DNA from: Candidatus Omnitrophota bacterium
GTDB taxonomy: Bacteria; Omnitrophota; Gorgyraeia; Zapsychrales; Zapsychraceae
Direction: 5' to 3'
Length of the DNA stretch: 38,123 bases
Assembly (NCBI GenBank): GCA_015233405.1
Contig: JADFXT010000009.1
Span: forward strand, 75,432-113,554
The notes below the pieces were generated by a model. It saw only the letters and a list, made by a program, of their open reading frames with translations, made no database searches and was not told the DNA's origin. Below are positions 1 to 38,123 of the stretch, piece by piece (the stretch's first letter is position 1; the number at the start of each line of letters is the position of its first letter). A program made the position numbers and the translations under genes.

Positions 1-214
1 CTGTTATTATCTCTTAATCCTTTTGCTTTACCATCTCCGCTTCTCCTAAGTATGTCGCTTGCACTTACTCCAGCAACCTCGGAATTCCTCCCCCCCGTTA
101 GGCGATCACAGCGAAGCCGGCTGCTTGCGCTTCCATGATGGAGAGCCCTACCCCTTCGATGCGCGAAGATCGTAAGAGCCCCCATCCGAACTCCAGTCAG
201 ACGTGTGCTCTTCC
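1..214. other. Contig-end artefact: adapter sequence joining an inverted GT4-like segment
   Basis: Positions 167-199 match the Illumina TruSeq read-through adapter at 28 of 33 bases as I recall the adapter. Positions 197-214 match the reverse complement of its distal part at all 18 bases. Left of this, about 88-166 is an inverted, diverged copy of about 219-308: both encode the GT4 stretch around GLSIMEAQA, one on each strand. The inverted copy carries a stop codon and a frame change, and is not an intact gene. The arrangement (segment, adapter, reversed adapter, segment) is what a chimeric read or fold-back at a contig end gives. Nothing here should be treated as genomic without read support. 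Confidence 0.85.
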
Positions 215-513
215 TACCTTCGCGCAATGAAGGCCTAGGGCTTTCCATCATGGAAGCGCAAGCATCCGGCTTAGCGGTCATCGCATCACGTGTGGGAGGA
301 ATTCCAAGCTTGATTGAGGATCGGAAAACAGGAATCTTAGTCGAGCCGGAAAACGTCAATGAACTGGCTAAAGAGATCATCGGCTTGTTGACTTATTCAG
401 AAAAAATCAAAGAGCTTGGCCTAAATGCCAGAGAGTTCGCCTTAAAGAATTATTCATCCGAGCAAATGGTTGAAAAAACCGTCACTGTTTATAAAAGTCT
501 TGTCAGCGCTTAA
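205..513 (+). CDS. Glycosyltransferase family 4, C-terminal fragment (5' end lost)
   Basis: This is the last ~100 residues of a GT-B fold, GT4-type sugar transferase of the kind that builds cell-surface glycans. The stretch LPSRNEGLGLSIMEAQASG, followed by VGGIPSLI and TGILVEP, is the donor-nucleotide binding region of the family; the Glu residues of EGLGLSIMEA are the expected E-x7-E pair. A full protein would be about 350-400 residues, so some 250 are missing on the left. The GTG at 205 lies inside adapter-like sequence and is not a real start; genuine coding sequence probably begins near 215. The stop at 511-513 is 4 bases before the next gene, so it is probably the first visible member of the LPS glycosyltransferase run. 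Donor and acceptor cannot be told. Confidence 0.85.
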   Translation: MLFLPSRNEGLGLSIMEAQASGLAVIASRVGGIPSLIEDRKTGILVEPENVNELAKEIIGLLTYSEKIKELGLNAREFALKNYSSEQMVEKTVTVYKSLVSA

Positions 514-9291: not shown

Positions 9292-9366
9292 AGTCCCGAC
9301 GGTTTTGTTTTCACCGGATTTCTATTTTCTCTGCTTTCGGTATTTGTGGAACAACGGAAGTTGGGA

Positions 9367-9595
9367 CGGAATCCCGCCGCAAGCGGGATGAATCTCTTGA
9401 AAATTCAAAGTGTTTAGATGAAATCCCCGCCGCTAGCGGGATGAAGCCGTTAAAGATGCAAATGCCGAACGGAATCCCGCCGCAAGCGGGATGAATCTCT
9501 TGAAAATTCAAAGTATTTAGATGAAATCCCCGCGGCAACCTGCCTGCCGGCAGGCAGGGCGGGATGAAGCTGTTAAAGATTCAAATGTCGGTCCA
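9367..9595 (+). repeat. Two tandem ~103-base units rich in CCCGC/GCGGG hairpins
   Basis: Unit 1 (9367-9469) and unit 2 (from 9470, offset 103) share CGGAATCCCGCCGCAAGCGG, the ATGAATCTCTTGAAAATTCA stretch, and TTTAGATGAAATCCCCGC, with few differences. Each unit contains two short hairpins with CCCGC/GCGGG stems and 5-base loops. In unit 2 the second hairpin loop is replaced by a longer sequence holding a perfect 20-base palindrome (9539-9558). The spacer 9292-9651 has no supported gene; the short ORFs seen in it are translations of the repeat. It separates the lpt genes from trigger factor and may end transcription of the LPS operon, though no T-tract follows the stems. Confidence 0.8.
9539..9558. 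repeat. Perfect 20-base palindrome nested in a repeat hairpin loop
   Basis: CCTGCCTGCCGGCAGGCAGG is its own reverse complement. It occupies the loop of a CCCGC...GCGGG hairpin in the second tandem unit, where the first unit has only a short CGCTA loop. An imperfect relative (CCTGCACTGCCGACAGGCAGG split as two 10-11 base arms) occurs at 36993-37013, again inside a hairpin loop of a different repeat element. This suggests an insertable palindromic module. Confidence 0.85.
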
Positions 9596-29877: not shown

Positions 29878-30909
29878 ATGGACGAGAAAAGAAATATTAT
29901 CTTTAGCCGGGAAACCGAAGAGGACCAGGTCTATAGCCTGTCTTTGCGGCCGGCGAGTCTGACTGATTTTATCGGCCAGAAGGAATTGGTCGACAATCTG
30001 AAGGTTTCTATCCAGGCCGCCAAACAGCGCTCTGAACCTATTGAGCACGTCCTTTTGTCCGGCCCGCCGGGATTAGGGAAGACGTCGTTGGCGAATATTG
30101 TCGCCTATGAAATGGGCGCGCACATTACGGTGACCTCAGGCCCGGCCATTGACCGTGCGGGTGACTTAATCGGCATCTTGACCAATTTGGAAAAAGGGGA
30201 TGTTCTTTTTATTGATGAGATCCACCGGTTATCAAAGGTCGTCGAGGAATTCCTTTATCCGGCCATGGAAAATTTTAAGATCGATTTTATCGTCGACAAA
30301 GGGCCGTACGCCAAGACCATTAATTTTAATTTAAAGCCCTTTACGCTCATTGGCGCGACGACGCGAAGCGGATTGTTGACGTCTCCGCTGCGAGAACGGT
30401 TCGGCATTTTTCACCATTTGGATTTTTATAAGATTGAAGAGCTCAGCCATATTGTGACAAAATCCGCCCAGAAGCTCAATGTCCCGATTGATGATGCGGG
30501 GGCTTTGGAGATCGCCCGTCGGGCCCGCGGGACGCCGCGGATCGCCAATCGATTATTACGGCGCGTCAGGGATTTTGCGCAGGTCAAGACCTCCAAAGGC
30601 GTGATTGAGACGTCTGTCGTCCAGGAGGCGATGAAGACCTTAGGGATCGATGCCCAGGGCCTGGATGAGACGGACCGAAAGATGATGCGAGTTATTTTTG
30701 AGCATTATAAAGGCGGTCCCGTCGGCATTGAGACCTTGGCCGCGACCTTAAATGAAGAGATCGATACGATCGAAGACGTGATTGAACCATATCTTTTAAA
30801 GATGGGATTCTTAAAGAGAACTCCTCGCGGAAGGGAATTGACAGAGCAGTCTTTAAAGGCGCTTTCGATAAATTCCTCCTTGCCCAAAACCAAGTCTGAA
30901 CTATTCTAA
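29878..30909 (+). CDS. ruvB: Holliday junction branch-migration helicase subunit
   Basis: AAA+ ring helicase driving RuvA-bound Holliday junctions; 343 residues. Near the N-terminus LRPASLTDFIGQ; Walker A GPPGLGKT at 62-69; Walker B VLFIDEIHRL; sensor-1 LIGATTRSGLLTSPLRERFG; arginine/sensor-2 GTPRIANRLLRRVRD; C-terminal winged helix (~250-335) with GLDETDRKMM and GGPVGIETLA. All parts are complete. ruvA and ruvC are not adjacent. Confidence 0.97.
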   Translation: MDEKRNIIFSRETEEDQVYSLSLRPASLTDFIGQKELVDNLKVSIQAAKQRSEPIEHVLLSGPPGLGKTSLANIVAYEMGAHITVTSGPAIDRAGDLIGILTNLEKGDVLFIDEIHRLSKVVEEFLYPAMENFKIDFIVDKGPYAKTINFNLKPFTLIGATTRSGLLTSPLRERFGIFHHLDFYKIEELSHIVTKSAQKLNVPIDDAGALEIARRARGTPRIANRLLRRVRDFAQVKTSKGVIETSVVQEAMKTLGIDAQGLDETDRKMMRVIFEHYKGGPVGIETLAATLNEEIDTIEDVIEPYLLKMGFLKRTPRGRELTEQSLKALSINSSLPKTKSELF

Positions 30910-30925
30910 CCTAAAGGTGACAACC

Positions 30926-31138
30926 ATGGATCTAGCCAAAACATTAATCGTGGTCGGAGTTATCTGTCTTGTCGCCGGAGGGATTCTGTCTTTGACCGGG
31001 AAGCTTCCCTGGCTGGGGAAATTACCCGGAGATTTCTTTATCAAGAAAGAAAATTTTTCTTTTTATTTTCCATTAACCACGTGTATTCTTATCAGCCTCA
31101 TTTTCAGTTTTATTTTATGGATATTAAAACAAAAATAA
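30926..31138 (+). CDS. DUF2905 small membrane protein
   Basis: A 70-residue protein with two hydrophobic helices (about 4-24 and 45-66) around a polar LPWLGKLPGDFFIKKENFSFYFP loop. The GKLPGD...NFSFYFP pattern is typical of the short DUF2905 family, often found next to ruvB or queA genes in diverse bacteria. No function is known. ATG at 30926 stands eight bases after AAAGG; the GTG at 30917 is part of that site. Its 3' end overlaps the SpoIID-like gene by 22 bases. Confidence 0.88.
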   Translation: MDLAKTLIVVGVICLVAGGILSLTGKLPWLGKLPGDFFIKKENFSFYFPLTTCILISLIFSFILWILKQK

Positions 31139-32304
31139 TAGGTTTTCTTGTCTTATCCGTCGGGCTTTTCTATTTAAGCTTAGGAGCGCCGGCCTTTGCC
31201 GTCGACCTTTATAAGGAGCCGACGGTGCGCGTTGCTGTTTTAAATAACGCCCAGAGTTTTGAGCTTTCCGTCTCTGGAAGTTACCGGATCTTGAACCCTC
31301 AAAATGAGGAAATCTTTAAGCGGGCCAGGACCCTTAAAAATGCGGTTATTTCTTTAGGCAAACAAGGGATCAAGATCGATGATGTGGAATATCCGCTGAA
31401 TCATCTGCGTATTGAGGCCCCGAAAGGCGTTTCCATCCGCGTGGATGATAAAACGCGCAAATATCGCGGTGACGTTGATATTTTTAAGGAGCCCGATGGG
31501 CATTTTCTGGTCGTCAATTTAATCGAGCTCGAGCGTTATATCAAGGGTGTTTTGTATCATGAGATCACCGACCGCTGGCCCATGGAGGCCATGAAAGCTC
31601 AGGCGGTGGCGGTGAGAAGTTATACGCTTTATCAGATGAGCAAAAATAAACTTCAGCAATATGATGTGACCAGCGACATTTATTCTCAAATGTATGGCGG
31701 TAAGGACGCGGAACGCTATCGGACCAGCATTGCGGTGAACCGCACGCGAGGAGAAGTCATTGTTTATAATAACAAGATTTTACCGGCCTATTATCATGCC
31801 AACAGCGGCGGGTATACGGAGGACGTCAGCGAATTGTGGGAACATAATTTGCCGCCGTTAAAAGGGGTCGTCTCGAAATATTCTTTGGGCATGCCCAGTT
31901 CCCAGTGGAAGAAAAATTTTCGTTTAAGGGATATTCAAGAGAAGCTCAACACAAAAGGTTATAAAACAGGGGTCATAAAAGACATCTGCATCCTCGAGCG
32001 AAATAGAAGCGGGCGTATCCGCTCTCTTGAGATCACGTCGCGCGACGGCAGAAAGAAGAAAATCGCAGGAAAAGATTTTAGGGAAACTTTAGGTCCCAAT
32101 GATCTTAAGAGCAATAATTATGAGATCATGATGAAGGGATATTATGTGGATTTTATCGGCAAGGGTTGGGGGCACGGGGTCGGGATGTGCCAGTGGGGCG
32201 CGTATAATATGGCCAAGCAGAATTTTTCTTATAACGACATCCTGCTGTTTTATTATCCCGGTGCGACGATCGTCGATTACCGTCACCAAGAAGGGTTGAT
32301 GTAG
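31117..32304 (+). CDS. Secreted SpoIID/LytB-domain protein
   Basis: Extracytoplasmic protein of 395 residues. A signal peptide covers 1-~27 (IIGFLVLSVGLFYLSLGAPAFA). After a lead-in strand region, the SpoIID domain spans ~130-385: RGDVDIFKEPDGHFLVVN, IELERYIKGVLYHEI, EAMKAQAVAVRSYTL, DVTSDIYSQMYGG, PAYYHANSGGYTEDVSELW and KGWGHGVGMCQWGAYNMA. In sporulating bacteria SpoIID is a lytic transglycosylase for denuded glycans; homologues in non-sporulating species may act in wall remodelling or division. The catalytic Glu would be that in LYHEI. No sporulation genes are seen here. ATG at 31117 is within the end of the DUF2905 gene. Confidence 0.93.
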   Translation: MDIKTKIIGFLVLSVGLFYLSLGAPAFAVDLYKEPTVRVAVLNNAQSFELSVSGSYRILNPQNEEIFKRARTLKNAVISLGKQGIKIDDVEYPLNHLRIEAPKGVSIRVDDKTRKYRGDVDIFKEPDGHFLVVNLIELERYIKGVLYHEITDRWPMEAMKAQAVAVRSYTLYQMSKNKLQQYDVTSDIYSQMYGGKDAERYRTSIAVNRTRGEVIVYNNKILPAYYHANSGGYTEDVSELWEHNLPPLKGVVSKYSLGMPSSQWKKNFRLRDIQEKLNTKGYKTGVIKDICILERNRSGRIRSLEITSRDGRKKKIAGKDFRETLGPNDLKSNNYEIMMKGYYVDFIGKGWGHGVGMCQWGAYNMAKQNFSYNDILLFYYPGATIVDYRHQEGLM

Positions 32305-32306
32305 CC

Positions 32307-33326
32307 TTGGATGCCTTTGACCTTAAAACCTACGGATACCATCTTCCGGAGGAATTGATCGCGCAAGAGCCGGTTTTCCCTCGGGATAAAGCGCGGCTCA
32401 TGGTGATTGACCGGGTAAAGCAGACGATCTCGCACGACACCTTCAATCAACTTGATAAATATCTTCCGCCCAAGTCTGTTTTGGTCCTTAATGACAGCAA
32501 GGTTGTCCCCGCCAGGCTTTTGGGCCGTCGGGAGGATACCGGCGGCGAGGTTGAAATATTTCTTTTAAAACGATTATCCGACGGGTATACGTATCAAACA
32601 CTGCTGCGGCCGCTTAAGCGTTTAAAGCAGGGCGAGAAGATCAGTTTCGGTAAGGGAGAGCTGGTCGCCGAGATCGTTGATAAAGAAAATCGTCTGGTGC
32701 GTTTAAATAAGAAGAATATTTCCAGCTCTTTAGAAAAATTTGGGCATATGCCGCTTCCGCCGTATATCAAACGCTCCGATGGCGCGATGGACCGGAAATA
32801 TTATCAGACCGTTTACGCGAAGAAAGACGGCTCTGTGGCGTCTCCGACGGCAGGTCTTCATTTTACGACCAGATTGTTAGAGAAGATTTCGCGCGCTGGG
32901 CACGATATTCATAAGGTGACGCTTCACATTAATTATGCAACATTTAAGCCCGTCGAAGAGTCCGACATTCGTAATCATCCTATTCATTCGGAAGATTACG
33001 AAGTGGCGAAGGGCACCGTAAAGGCGATTCAAAAAGCCAAGGCCGAAGGCAAGAAGATCGTATCCGTCGGGACAACGGCCACGCGCGTGCTTGAAACGGT
33101 CGGGACCACCGGCAGCCTCAAAGGACGGACGAACATTTTTATTTATCCTGGGTACCAGTTTAAAATGATGGATGTCTTGATCACGAATTTTCACCTTCCT
33201 TTTAGTACACTTTTAATGCTGGTGTATGCATTTGGCACAAGGGACTTGATGTCGAGGGCGTATCAAGAGGCCGTTAAAGAAAAATATCGATTTTTTAGTT
33301 ATGGCGACGGGATGATGATTTTGTAA
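32307..33326 (+). CDS. queA: tRNA preQ1(34) S-adenosylmethionine ribosyltransferase-isomerase
   Basis: Transfers the ribosyl moiety of S-adenosylmethionine to preQ1 in tRNA, giving epoxyqueuosine; 339 residues. YHLPEELIAQEPVFPRDKARLM at the N-terminus, LNDSKVVPARL, PLPPYIKR, YQTVYAKKDGSVASPTAGLHFT (as adjacent parts) and NFHLPFSTLLMLV are family signatures. The start is TTG at 32307, since no in-frame ATG lies earlier in the family's N-terminus. Two bases separate it from the SpoIID gene. Followed by a repeat spacer, then tgt, the enzyme acting just before it in the pathway. Confidence 0.96.
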   Translation: MDAFDLKTYGYHLPEELIAQEPVFPRDKARLMVIDRVKQTISHDTFNQLDKYLPPKSVLVLNDSKVVPARLLGRREDTGGEVEIFLLKRLSDGYTYQTLLRPLKRLKQGEKISFGKGELVAEIVDKENRLVRLNKKNISSSLEKFGHMPLPPYIKRSDGAMDRKYYQTVYAKKDGSVASPTAGLHFTTRLLEKISRAGHDIHKVTLHINYATFKPVEESDIRNHPIHSEDYEVAKGTVKAIQKAKAEGKKIVSVGTTATRVLETVGTTGSLKGRTNIFIYPGYQFKMMDVLITNFHLPFSTLLMLVYAFGTRDLMSRAYQEAVKEKYRFFSYGDGMMIL

Positions 33327-33340
33327 ATTGTAGTTTTGGT

Positions 33341-33444
33341 TGTCATCCCCGCGCAAGCGGGGATCCAGGAATGCTTTTAATGTTTTTGATCATTATTGAA
33401 AAATTAACTACGTATACTGGATTCCCGCTTTCGCGGGAATGACA
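33341..33444. repeat. Two-hairpin element (TGTCAT...ATGACA), copy 1
   Basis: Outer ends are TGTCAT and ATGACA. Left hairpin: ATCCCCGC (33345-33352), loop GCAA, GCGGGGAT (33357-33364). Right hairpin: ATTCCCGC (33421-33428), loop TTTC, GCGGGAAT (33433-33440). A 56-base A+T-rich centre joins them. In the queA-tgt spacer; no gene. Confidence 0.88.
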
Positions 33445-33508
33445 TCGGAAGGAAACGGGAATGACAAAAAATAAGATGGCAAAGTTTTTGGGTTGGAAGA
33501 AATTTTGA

Positions 33509-34642
<1,134 letters not shown>

Positions 34643-34674
34643 AAGTAATTTTTATTGTTGTTTCAATTTTTAGG

Positions 34675-34752
34675 TGTCATCCCCGCGAAGGCGGGGATCC
34701 AGGATCCAAAGCCGAACCGTATTACTGGATTCCCGCTTCCGCGGGAATGACA
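34675..34752. repeat. Two-hairpin element, copy 2
   Basis: Left hairpin ATCCCCGC/GCGGGGAT (34679-34698, loop GAAG) and right hairpin ATTCCCGC/GCGGGAAT (34729-34748, loop TTCC) between TGTCAT and ATGACA ends. Only ~30 bases separate the hairpins, and that centre does not resemble copy 1. Lies between tgt and trmD. Confidence 0.88.
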
Positions 34753-34796
34753 AGAATGGGACGGAATGACAACGGAAACAACTGAGGAGATTAGTA

Positions 34797-35474
34797 TTGC
34801 GCATTGATATCATTACCATTTTTCCTGAAGTTTTAAAGCCAATTCTTAATGAGTCTATTTTAAAACGGGCTCAGGAAAAGAAAAAACTCGACGTGCGTGT
34901 CCATGACCTTCGGGATTATACGGCCGATAAACATAATAAAGTGGACGACCGTCCTTTTGGCGGCGGGCCGGGCATGGTCATGACGCCGCAGCCGATCTTT
35001 GATGCCGTTAAAAAGATCAAAGGCCGACGCAAAGCCTTCGTTATCTTGACGTGCCCTACGGGAAAGCCTTTGACTCAAAAATTCGCGAAAAATTTGTCAA
35101 AACAGAAAAACTTGATTATACTATGTGGGCATTACGAAGGGATCGATGAGCGCGTGCGGGAATGCTTAGTCGATGAAAGCATTTCTATCGGTGATTATGT
35201 GTTGACCGGAGGGGAATTGCCGGCGCTGGTTTTAGTCGATTGCGTCACGCGGCTGATCCCCGGCGTGCTGGGGAAGGAGGAATCGTTAAAAGATGAGTCA
35301 TTTGAGAACAACCTCTTGGAATATCCTCAGTACACACGTCCTGCAAATTTTCGTGGCGTAAAAATACCAAATGTGTTACTATCTGGAAATCATCGAGCCA
35401 TAGAAATGTGGCGAAAAGAGCAATCGTTGGCGCGGACGAGACAAAATCGTCCGGATTTATTAAAACAAAAATAG
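34797..35474 (+). CDS. trmD: tRNA (guanine-N1-)-methyltransferase
   Basis: SPOUT trefoil-knot enzyme methylating G37 of tRNAs; 225 residues. N-terminal IITIFPEVL, the RPFGGGPGMVM motif, the knot with LCGHYEGIDERV, SIGDYVLTGGELPALV and C-terminal PQYTRP...LLSGNHRAI (split) are intact. The start is TTG at 34797, eight bases after GAGGAG. In many genomes trmD lies in rpsP-rimM-trmD-rplS; here only rplS follows, with rimM and rpsP missing. Confidence 0.96.
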   Translation: MRIDIITIFPEVLKPILNESILKRAQEKKKLDVRVHDLRDYTADKHNKVDDRPFGGGPGMVMTPQPIFDAVKKIKGRRKAFVILTCPTGKPLTQKFAKNLSKQKNLIILCGHYEGIDERVRECLVDESISIGDYVLTGGELPALVLVDCVTRLIPGVLGKEESLKDESFENNLLEYPQYTRPANFRGVKIPNVLLSGNHRAIEMWRKEQSLARTRQNRPDLLKQK

Positions 35475-35586
35475 AAAGTCCGAATATCGAAATTCGAAGC
35501 AAGTCCGAAAAGAGCAATGTCCTAAAATTTTGGAATTTTGGTCCTTGGGAATTTGTTTCGGGTTTCGAACTTAGGATTTCGGATTT
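35475..35586. repeat. CCGAAACAA-type long-arm inverted element, copy 2
   Basis: Left arm 35475-35502 and right arm 35553-35586 are related to the arms at 12342-12375 and 12423-12456: TTGTTTCGG then TTTCG on the right, TCCGAATATCG and CGAAGCAA on the left. The pairing is less perfect here. Lies in the spacer before rplS, close to its RBS. Confidence 0.7.
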
Positions 35587-35615
35587 TAAAACGGTCTCAT
35601 AAGGAGGTTATATTC

Positions 35616-36008
35616 ATGGCAACAAAAATCAATACCGGTGAATTTATTAAAAAACTTGATCAAAAAAGACTTCGTTCCGATCTCCCTGAATTTAACGTCG
35701 GGGATACGGTGAAGATGAAGGTCCGCGTTCAGGAAGCAGAAAAAATGCGCTTGCATCCTTATGAGGGCATTGTGATCCGTAAGACCTCAGGAAAAGGATT
35801 AAAAGCGGCTTTTACCGTCCGCAAGATCTCCTTTGGCGAAGGCGTGGAAAGAACTTTTCCGCTGCATTCTCCTGTGATCGAAAGCTTGAAAGTCGTAGCC
35901 GAGGGGACGGTCAATAGATCTCGCCTTTATTATCTACGTAATCGTCAGGGAAAAAGCGCCCGCATCGAGCAAGAACAAACCTTGACGCAGGCTCCTACAC
36001 ATCAATAA
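35616..36008 (+). CDS. rplS: 50S ribosomal protein L19
   Basis: Ribosomal protein at the 30S-50S interface; 130 residues (bacterial L19 ~115-130). LPEFNVGDTVKMKVRVQEAEKMRLH and YEGIVIRKTSGKG, SFGEGVERTFPLHSP and RSRLYYLRNRQGKSARI are the family signature. AAGGAGG eight bases upstream fixes the ATG at 35616; longer ORF starts fall inside the repeat. The last ~15 residues (QTLTQAPTHQ) look like a short family-specific tail. Confidence 0.97.
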   Translation: MATKINTGEFIKKLDQKRLRSDLPEFNVGDTVKMKVRVQEAEKMRLHPYEGIVIRKTSGKGLKAAFTVRKISFGEGVERTFPLHSPVIESLKVVAEGTVNRSRLYYLRNRQGKSARIEQEQTLTQAPTHQ

Positions 36009-36020
36009 TCAGCTTTAGGC

Positions 36021-36042
36021 ACCAAAGACCTTTGGTTGTTTT
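36021..36042 (+). terminator. Weak terminator-like hairpin after rplS
   Basis: ACCAAA (36021-36026), loop GACC, TTTGGT (36031-36036) followed by TGTTTT. The stem has only two G-C pairs, so termination would be partial at most. It lies 12 bases after the rplS stop. Confidence 0.3.
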
Positions 36043-36073
36043 GTCGTCAACACAAGAAAGGTTGCAGGGCTTT

Positions 36074-36706
36074 ATGCTTACCTTTGAAAGTCAAATCAGG
36101 CAGGAAGGATTTGACTTTGTTATCGGAATAGATGAAGCGGGCCGCGGCCCTTTGGCCGGACCCGTCGTTGCTTCTGCGGTGCTTCTTAAACAAACAGATT
36201 TCCATTCTCCCATTCGGGATTCCAAAAAACTTTCTTCCAAACAACGTGAAACGGCCTTTGAAGAGATCGGCCAGAAGGCCTATGTCGGGGTTGGTATCGT
36301 CAGCGAATCCGTGATCGACGAGGCGAACATTTTGCGTGCGGCGTTTATGGCCATGGAGGGCGCGGTTTTGGACCTTGTCCGCCAGCTTCCCGGGGACGTC
36401 AGTTCACAAAATGATTTTTCTAAAAAAGTATGCTTGCTGGTTGATGGAAATCAATTTATTTCGGCCTTGCCCTATGCCTATCGCACCATTGTCAAAGGCG
36501 ATGAAAAGGTTTTTTCGATCTCAGCAGCGTCCATTATCGCTAAGGTCACCCGCGACCGGATGCTGGATATTTACGACCGTATTTTCCCCGAATATGGATT
36601 TCAAAAACACAAAGGTTATCCTACGCTGGCACACCGCAGCGCCATTAAAACTCACGGCATGTCTCCCATCCATCGAAAGACGTTTAGCAAAAAATTCTGC
36701 GGATAG
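36074..36706 (+). CDS. rnhB: Ribonuclease HII
   Basis: Removes RNA primers and misincorporated ribonucleotides from DNA; 210 residues. Catalytic D20-E21 in VIGIDEAGRGPLAGPV, the third Asp in LLVDGNQF, and the fourth in SIIAKVTRDRMLDIYD. GYPTLAHRSAIKTHGMSPIHR near the C-terminus is a family mark. ATG at 36074 is chosen; a TTG at 36032 would begin in the hairpin after rplS. It is the last gene of the housekeeping run. Confidence 0.95.
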   Translation: MLTFESQIRQEGFDFVIGIDEAGRGPLAGPVVASAVLLKQTDFHSPIRDSKKLSSKQRETAFEEIGQKAYVGVGIVSESVIDEANILRAAFMAMEGAVLDLVRQLPGDVSSQNDFSKKVCLLVDGNQFISALPYAYRTIVKGDEKVFSISAASIIAKVTRDRMLDIYDRIFPEYGFQKHKGYPTLAHRSAIKTHGMSPIHRKTFSKKFCG

Positions 36707-37336: not shown

Positions 37337-38123
37337 ATGAAAAACGGTTCACCTAAAACCCAAAAAAGTTTGTGTATCAGAATTGTTTCTGCGGTCATTC
37401 TTTTTACATTTACGTTCACGTCCATCATTCCGCCGAGCTACGCGCAGAGTGTAATTCTGCCGACTCCGGGCGCGATGGTGACACCGTCCATGGCGTATGT
37501 GCCAGCGCTTTTAAAAGGCATGACGCTGCACAAGGACAATCCATTTCAGTTTGATTTTATTATCGATAACGGCCAAAGCGGTCTTCAAGGTGATGAATTA
37601 AAGAAAGAATCGCAGCGTTTGGTCAAATATTTCCTTGCATCCATGACCGTTCCGCAGAATGACCTTTGGGTCAACCTTTCTCCGGTAGAAAAAAATCGTA
37701 TCGTTCCCGACGCATTAGGCAAAACTGAATTAGGCCAGGATTTATTGGCTCAGGATTACATTTTAAAGCAACTGACTGCAACGTTAATGTATCCGGAAGG
37801 GGAGTTAGGTAAAAAGTTTTGGGATCGCATATATAAGGAAGCAAAAGAAAAGTACGGCGTAACTGATATTCCGACAGATACTTTTAACAAAGTTTGGATT
37901 TTGCCTGAATCCGCGACGATCTATGAAAATGGAGCGACGGTGTATGTTGTGGATGCGAAATTGAAGGTGATGTTGGATGAGGATTATCTGGCAGCCAATC
38001 AATCTACTTCCAGTCAAGCTGCTTCTAGTCATCCCGCTTTTTCTTCTTTGTCATCCCGGGCGCAGACCCGGGATCCAGGGTCTAAAAACGGGTTACTGGA
38101 TTCCCGCCTTCGCGGGAATGACA
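37337..38123 (+). CDS. Secreted protein, N-terminal part, open at the window end
   Basis: First 262 residues of a protein that continues past the right end. AAAGGAG precedes the ATG at 37337. A signal peptide covers ~13-36, ending SYA before QS. Residues ~45-225 form a conserved-looking domain (FDFIIDNGQ, KYFLASMTVP, LWVNLSPVEKNRIVP, LGQDLLAQDYILKQLTATLMYPE, GKKFWDRIYKEA, FNKVWILPESATIYE, LKVMLDEDYLA). I recall this block at the N-terminus of very large Omnitrophota proteins; this is memory, not a search. From residue ~227 a Ser/Ala/Gln linker passes into the dispersed repeat, read in frame as SSRAQTRDPG... LDSRLRGND. Function unknown. Confidence 0.85.
   Translation, partial: MKNGSPKTQKSLCIRIVSAVILFTFTFTSIIPPSYAQSVILPTPGAMVTPSMAYVPALLKGMTLHKDNPFQFDFIIDNGQSGLQGDELKKESQRLVKYFLASMTVPQNDLWVNLSPVEKNRIVPDALGKTELGQDLLAQDYILKQLTATLMYPEGELGKKFWDRIYKEAKEKYGVTDIPTDTFNKVWILPESATIYENGATVYVVDAKLKVMLDEDYLAANQSTSSQAASSHPAFSSLSSRAQTRDPGSKNGLLDSRLRGND
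38049..38123. repeat. Two-hairpin element, copy 5, read in frame within the last gene
   Basis: Left stem ATCCCGGG/CCCGGGAT (38053-38074, loop CGCAGA), right stem ATTCCCGC/GCGGGAAT (38100-38119, loop CTTC), ends TGTCAT and ATGACA. The window stops on the final A of ATGACA. It is translated without a stop as ...DSRLRGND. Confidence 0.88.

Follow-up and report, generated by a model that had tools for sequence, protein, structure and literature searches.

Palindromic repeats in frame within the hinge of a conserved, probably exported protein family of Omnitrophota

The window analyzed here (38,123 nucleotides; positions 75432 to 113554 of contig C47, in a Candidatus Omnitrophota assembly of 47 contigs and 2.38 Mb) ends inside an open reading frame whose final bases belong to a dispersed palindromic repeat, and contig C47 stops where the window stops. 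This locus raises the question of whether the frame is a gene broken off in a repeat or the beginning of a long protein that has taken up the repeat as coding sequence. We consider it probable that the window gene is the 5′ part of a large exported modular Omnitrophota protein and that its repeat, the mobile-type palindrome F1a, is a linker in a disordered hinge that has been a recurrent acceptor of such elements.

The window gene and its continuation

The frame is a real ORF, located at 37337 to 38123 on the forward strand; it starts with an ATG after GGAGA and is open at the contig end. Its N terminus, MKNGSPKTQKSLCIRIVSAVILFTFTFTSIIPPSYAQ, resembles a Sec signal peptide when read by eye, and the putative peptide spans residues 1 to 37 (37337 to 37447, forward strand, ending PPSYAQ); leaders resembling signal peptides stand on all paralogs, with hydrophobic leaders alike in essentially all. 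Residues 38 to 217 (37448 to 37987, forward), with LKVMLDEDY at their end, make up a domain that we call head A, delimited from a paralog alignment (A1) and the AlphaFold2 model of a homolog, L075. The hinge between head A and a second conserved portion, head B, is largely repeat built and runs from 37988 to 38123 (forward), then for a few residues into contig C7. A sequence-only reading of the window had proposed that a dispersed element is translated in frame right after the N-terminal domain, and this is what we find: F1a, at 38049 to 38123 (forward; DNA TGTCATCCCGGG...CTTCGCGGGAATGACA), is read as SSRAQTRDPGSKNGLLDSRLRGND directly behind the conserved head A. Direct reading also identified an inner dRS3-like palindrome, ATTCCC-N8-GGGAAT (38100 to 38119, unstranded), and, immediately upstream of the full repeat, a possible relic half-element, GTCATCCCG (38028 to 38036, forward).

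Dispersed copies of the F1 family also occur between genes of the window, at 33321 to 33444 (repeat families D3 and D15) and at 34655 to 34752 (D3 and D15, inverted pair I4), both unstranded. F1 repeats occupy several gaps of the upstream run at 29878 to 36706, which we take, by recognition of its genes, to be a conserved housekeeping run (ruvB, spoIID-like, queA, tgt, trmD, rplS, and rnhB). Four copies of a tandem CCCGCCGC(A/T)AGCGGGATGAA-type repeat lie at 9366 to 9585. At the opposite end of the window, positions 1 to 380 form a 184-nt inverted repeat (73% complementary, 7-nt spacer) whose center, at ~170 to 217, contains ...GAACTCCAGTCAGACGTGTGCTCTTCC..., the Illumina TruSeq read-2 adapter; this structure is a fold-back library or assembly artifact within contig C47.

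Comparison of contig ends yielded two candidate continuations. The last 127 bases of the window (37997 to 38123, forward) are letter for letter those that end contig C7, and contig C5 ends in a sequence that matches 126 of these 127 bases; an overlap of 127 bases would be expected where a k=127 assembly graph branches. Joined to C7, the frame remains open for ~1,850 residues past the window and totals 2,114 amino acids, the C7 part supplying head B, modules, and a tail. Joined to C5, it is open as well (1,152 amino acids). A stop just behind the repeat, which the earlier reading had named as the sign of a truncated gene, occurs in neither C7 nor C5. The C47-C7 join, based on assembly-graph reasoning, not reads, is likely but unproven, because the true neighbor could be an unbinned contig. 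Closed paralogs have their parts in the same order as the joined frame. The predicted "giant secreted protein" is thus large, at 2,114 amino acids, but not giant (>5,000 amino acids), although relatives with the same head do reach 5,280 to 6,160 amino acids.

A conserved head with varied bodies

A protein search located 36 head-bearing places in the assembly, 34 of them whole or nearly whole and two truncated by contig ends (one on C46, one on C43). With badly cut frames excluded, the paralogs range from 472 to 4,003 amino acids, and together they amount to 71,754 amino acids, or 215 kb, ~9% of the assembly. Across the 34 paralogs of alignment A1, head A has a mean column identity of 55% and 31 invariant columns. 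A profile of the 34 heads matched at least 500 loci in public genomes; among the 80 matches listed, all titles named Omnitrophota, Omnitrophica, or named Omnitrophota candidates, except for one "Planctomycetales" metagenome-assembled genome (MAG) that is probably misnamed. In a sample of the phylum, 61 genomes came from the same order, and the profile matched 59 of them, mostly at E < 1e-80; it also matched 76 of 323 genomes outside the order, most at E near 1e-35 and with one to three copies. Within the order, a genome carries dozens of copies of this protein. The earlier suggestion that the N-terminal domain resembles the conserved head of very long Omnitrophota proteins was thereby borne out. 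Searches of the head against Pfam, NCBIfam, and PHROGs returned nothing credible, its profile had a single match among PDB sequences (9urz_D, E 0.66), and our literature search found no description of it. The family defined by this head is strongly conserved and so far undescribed.

AlphaFold2 modeled head A plus head B of L075 (71 alignment rows) with a pLDDT of 82.8 and a pTM of 0.82. The leader aside, pLDDT fell below 50 solely at residues 205 to 220, which are flanked by helices at 195 to 206 and 223 to 244 and are encoded by repeat-like sequence (VGASLVGARAKAGTSPAPT). The hinge is, by this model, a predicted disordered loop inside one folded head domain. Foldseek comparison of the modeled head with PDB and BFVD gave no match at E ≤ 0.001, and query TM-scores were below 0.2 among the best 50.

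The plan of the family comprises a signal peptide, head A (...KVMLEEDY), a hinge of 16 to 71 residues, head B (IIKEIILPAIEKEVNxGKNFAxLRQ ... KKYFSGG), enzyme-like bodies, and a GGID tail. The tail, GGIDLN...PVIINI.P...LLG, is 55 to 86 residues long and closes nearly every closed frame; its structural model is poor (pLDDT 65, pTM 0.25). The window gene has the signal peptide, both head parts, and the tail, with head B and the tail coming from C7. Its joined body has Pfam matches to UDPGP and NDK, the NDK part retaining NRIHGSD, which resembles the active-site motif. Other bodies match HAD, ROK, adenylate kinase (three genes), methyltransferases, PGM, glycosyltransferase 2, NAGPA, deaminase, GDPD, PRTase-CE repeats, and TPRs, and one type combines NAD synthase with CN_hydrolase and a cytidylyltransferase-like domain; several bodies have no Pfam match. 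Close heads carry completely different payloads.

A short motif, D-x-A-M-[MSVAT]-[TSA], recurs throughout these proteins: 126 occurrences were counted in the paralogs, against 0.6 expected from shuffles, and none in 74,007 amino acids of other ORFs. One copy typically lies 6 to 23 residues ahead of the GGID tail, and others follow head B or separate modules; in the joined C47-C7 frame, motifs of this type lie at residues 407, 473, 1301, 1597, 1722, 1930, and 2025. The motif is rarer in relatives (25 in 58,314 amino acids); in other species its place seems to be taken by variants, such as DxA[MQ]LS, and in some lineages SSP-like sequences are seen instead. Its third codon positions vary, and the constraint therefore acts on the protein. 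DxAM may be a module-boundary motif or a candidate processing motif. Internal translation starts at its Met were considered and rejected, Shine-Dalgarno-like sequences being present at 5 of 162 sites versus 5% of control Met codons, and the third codon positions being variable. Two adjoining paralogs on C45 (G000:C45:50498-62509, 4,003 amino acids, and C45:39539-50146, 3,535 amino acids) contain tandem modules of ~290 amino acids, each opening with VQRPVVDN behind DxAM; the shorter has five PRTase-CE matches.

Repeats in the hinge and their turnover

At least five repeat types occupy the hinge across the paralogs. F1a (LSSRAQTRDPGSKNGLLDSR[LF]RGND) is present in the window gene, C5_34754, C44_52593, and the C5 end; F1b is present in six hinges, F2 (VGAGFPRPDDKGRGNRAPT) in nine, F5 (IDQPSAEK...) in four, and F3 (IARNEVTKQS...ARNDT) in one, and about ten paralogs have hinges without a recognized repeat. 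A predicted peptide crossing one such repeat would read DPGSKNGLLDSR. In 478 kb sampled, 181 F1 half-sites were found: 117 intergenic, 34 in paralogs, and 30 in other predicted ORFs. Chance is excluded, because 30 of the 34 half-sites in paralogs lie in or near the hinge, essentially all in one frame; a second frame of the F1 element is also open. F2, laid out as GTAGGGGCGGGGTTTCCCCGCC...GGGCGCGGGAACCGCGCCCCTAC, has nine copies in the whole 2.38-Mb assembly, 9/9 of them in paralog hinges and in identical frame. Inverted repeats of at least 9 bp were detected in 12 of 32 hinges of this genome versus 7 of 192 control windows. Repeat-like peptides were also seen in other head loops, those of C26_3426, C46_6, C11_275807, and C1_21988 (SVGADLVSARRNDD, SVGANGRSPLQ, and VPTPGGSGL...), so the hinge is perhaps not the sole tolerated site.

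The same position is occupied in other species. In three other Omnitrophota MAGs (L128, L115, and L113), hinge DNA matches 29, 82, and 71 places, respectively, in the same genome, and these repeats are genome specific and different from those of the source genome. Inverted repeats of at least 9 bp occur in 9 of 74 hinges of relatives versus 5 of 444 controls, a count in which L113 and L176 are one hinge sequence counted twice. The earlier suggestion that the repeat can add coding linkers therefore holds for the window gene, for most paralogs, and for the same place in other species.

Repeat copies are 88 to 100% identical, versus 61 to 76% for the flanks of more distant pairs, and paralogs with 94 to 96% identical heads carry unrelated hinge repeats. 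On a head tree of 33 rows, the hinge state requires at least 17 changes, near the mean of 19.5 for shuffled states; the clade of the window gene (support 100/99) has three members, with F1a, F3, and F2 hinges. At G000:C43:90550-108638, two tandem paralogs overlap at base 97983, the stop of one being the start of the next; their head A sequences are 98% identical, and their hinge repeats differ. C43_98160 and C45_124672 have a double F4+F2 hinge in common nearly base for base, with the flanking 300 nt 66% identical, which suggests gene conversion for some of the spread. Because F2 has no copies outside hinges, exchange between paralogs is better supported for it than transposition is. We found no orthologous locus in two strains at which one site was empty. 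The three Y1_Tnp (RAYT-type) genes of the genome, L182 and L183 on contig C28 and L184 on C34, lie among small lipoprotein-like genes; they were considered as element carriers and rejected, none being flanked by F1, F2, or F3 copies.

In the mechanism that we propose, F1a would be translated as a hydrophilic linker within the disordered hinge of the head, and the hinge would act as a recurrent acceptor of mobile-type palindromic elements. Stop-free insertions of in-frame length would extend a disordered loop that connects two helices and would for that reason be tolerated. Owing to this tolerance, F1, F2, F3, and F5 would have been acquired, lost, or exchanged on many occasions, and gene conversion probably also helped F2 to spread between paralogs. 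We infer the mode of insertion, the mode of spread, and the near-neutrality of the linkers.

Alternative explanations and relation to known elements

One alternative is that the assembler halted in a repeat and thereby left a truncated or chimeric window gene, the real one ending shortly afterwards. The contig does end exactly in a multicopy repeat, several contig ends fall in the head family, and an adapter fold-back is present at window positions 1 to 380; however, the C7 overlap is exactly 127 bases, the ~1,850 in-frame residues that follow the window comprise head B, modules, and a tail, C5, the only other candidate, is open too, and closed paralogs show the same order of parts, all of which makes this explanation improbable. 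The hinge peptides could instead be ancestral conserved segments whose likeness to intergenic palindromes reflects decay or coincidence, with no mobile DNA involved. A conserved peptide motif would behave as F2 does, hinge restricted and always in one frame, but most F1 half-sites are intergenic (117 of 181), nucleotide palindromes are 88 to 100% identical between genes whose flanks are mostly 61 to 76% identical, heads 94 to 96% identical bear unrelated repeats, and the equivalent position in other species holds different repeats, specific to their genomes. This view is largely refuted, and we hold it to be very improbable indeed.

The repeats might also be recombination joints that put heads onto new bodies, the palindromes existing for module shuffling. 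Wholly different payloads on close heads and the sharing of F4+F2 with some flank by the distant paralogs C43_98160 and C45_124672 speak for such a role; against it, head A and head B identities agree in all close pairs (overall Spearman 0.54), so the hinge is not the site of head exchange, and the shuffling takes place downstream of head B. A joint between head A and head B is accordingly unsupported, and we regard the broader proposal as unlikely. Selection for a role in mRNA or DNA (a ribosome-pausing hairpin or an RNase, gyrase, or IHF site), rather than tolerance of a linker, would fit palindromes at one place early in long messages, and RNA roles of REPs are known from other systems (PMC3733652); the differing sequences of the repeat families and the roughly ten paralog hinges without a recognized repeat argue against it, and we give it little credence. 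A further reading, which we find doubtful, is that the hinge evolved as a place for elements to land or be exchanged: a lineage of Omnitrophota would export dozens of modular polyproteins, their modules set apart by a lineage-specific DxAM processing motif, and would vary linker length and composition through palindromic mobile DNA at this one hinge. Our preferred reading remains that of a tolerant hinge that has repeatedly accepted mobile-type palindromes.

Several known systems resemble parts of this arrangement. The Neisseria dRS3 repeat has the consensus ATTCCC-N8-GGGAAT. F1 holds ATTCCCGCCTTCGCGGGAAT and has this core at 38100 to 38119, but it is longer and composite, bounded by TGTCAT...ATGACA, and serves as a coding linker. 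Polymorphic toxin and effector systems combine a constant export-side N terminus with variable enzymatic bodies in many paralogs. The head family resembles them in these three respects, without a claim of membership, and differs in having a constant C-terminal tail as well and bodies mostly of metabolic type. Giant ORFs of Omnitrophota exceed 20 kb, have few annotated domains, and are described as poorly conserved, for most of them and in Velamenicoccia (Seymour 2023, PMC10066038), with a protein of 39,678 amino acids in Velamenicoccus (PMC10066038). The phylum, very long proteins predicted to be extracellular, and the scarcity of annotated domains are shared; here, however, a strongly conserved head and tail define a multicopy family, mostly of 0.7 to 4 kaa and with enzyme-like modules, and the longest open frame with this head in the phylum sample (6,160 amino acids), like the joined window gene (2,114), falls short of 20 kb.

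REPs are known within genes (PMC3733652), and Rickettsia palindromic elements (RPEs) are in-frame palindromes in protein genes (PMC10969869, PMC3733652). The hinge repeats are likewise in-frame palindromic repeats within protein-coding genes, come in several families, and lengthen apparently functional proteins; RPEs, however, occur in many unrelated genes, whereas here several families seem to favor one hinge of one paralog family, again and again, in an unrelated phylum; in the sampled DNA, the F1 half-sites within paralogs concentrate there (30 of 34), and 30 more lie in other predicted ORFs. F2, built as GTAG plus palindrome ... palindrome plus CTAC, resembles two inverted GTAG-REPs (PMC3733652), but it is neither dispersed nor mostly intergenic (9/9 copies in hinges, no intergenic copy), and none of the three Y1_Tnp genes here is flanked by the element as a linked RAYT would be. 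In-frame palindromes as such are already known; what is new is that a family of paralogs has drawn on them repeatedly at one and the same hinge.

The protein would carry enzyme-like modules out of the cell, perhaps with processing, in interaction with other cells. Until now, in-frame palindromes were an oddity known from Rickettsia and a small number of REP-rich genomes, for the most part as isolated insertions. One structural position with many insertions, from several repeat families and in many paralogs and species, amounts to a natural experiment on when mobile DNA becomes protein, and it lies in an undescribed family that occupies ~9% of this genome and is found again in almost all sampled genomes of an uncultured order whose members are suspected of predation or symbiosis.
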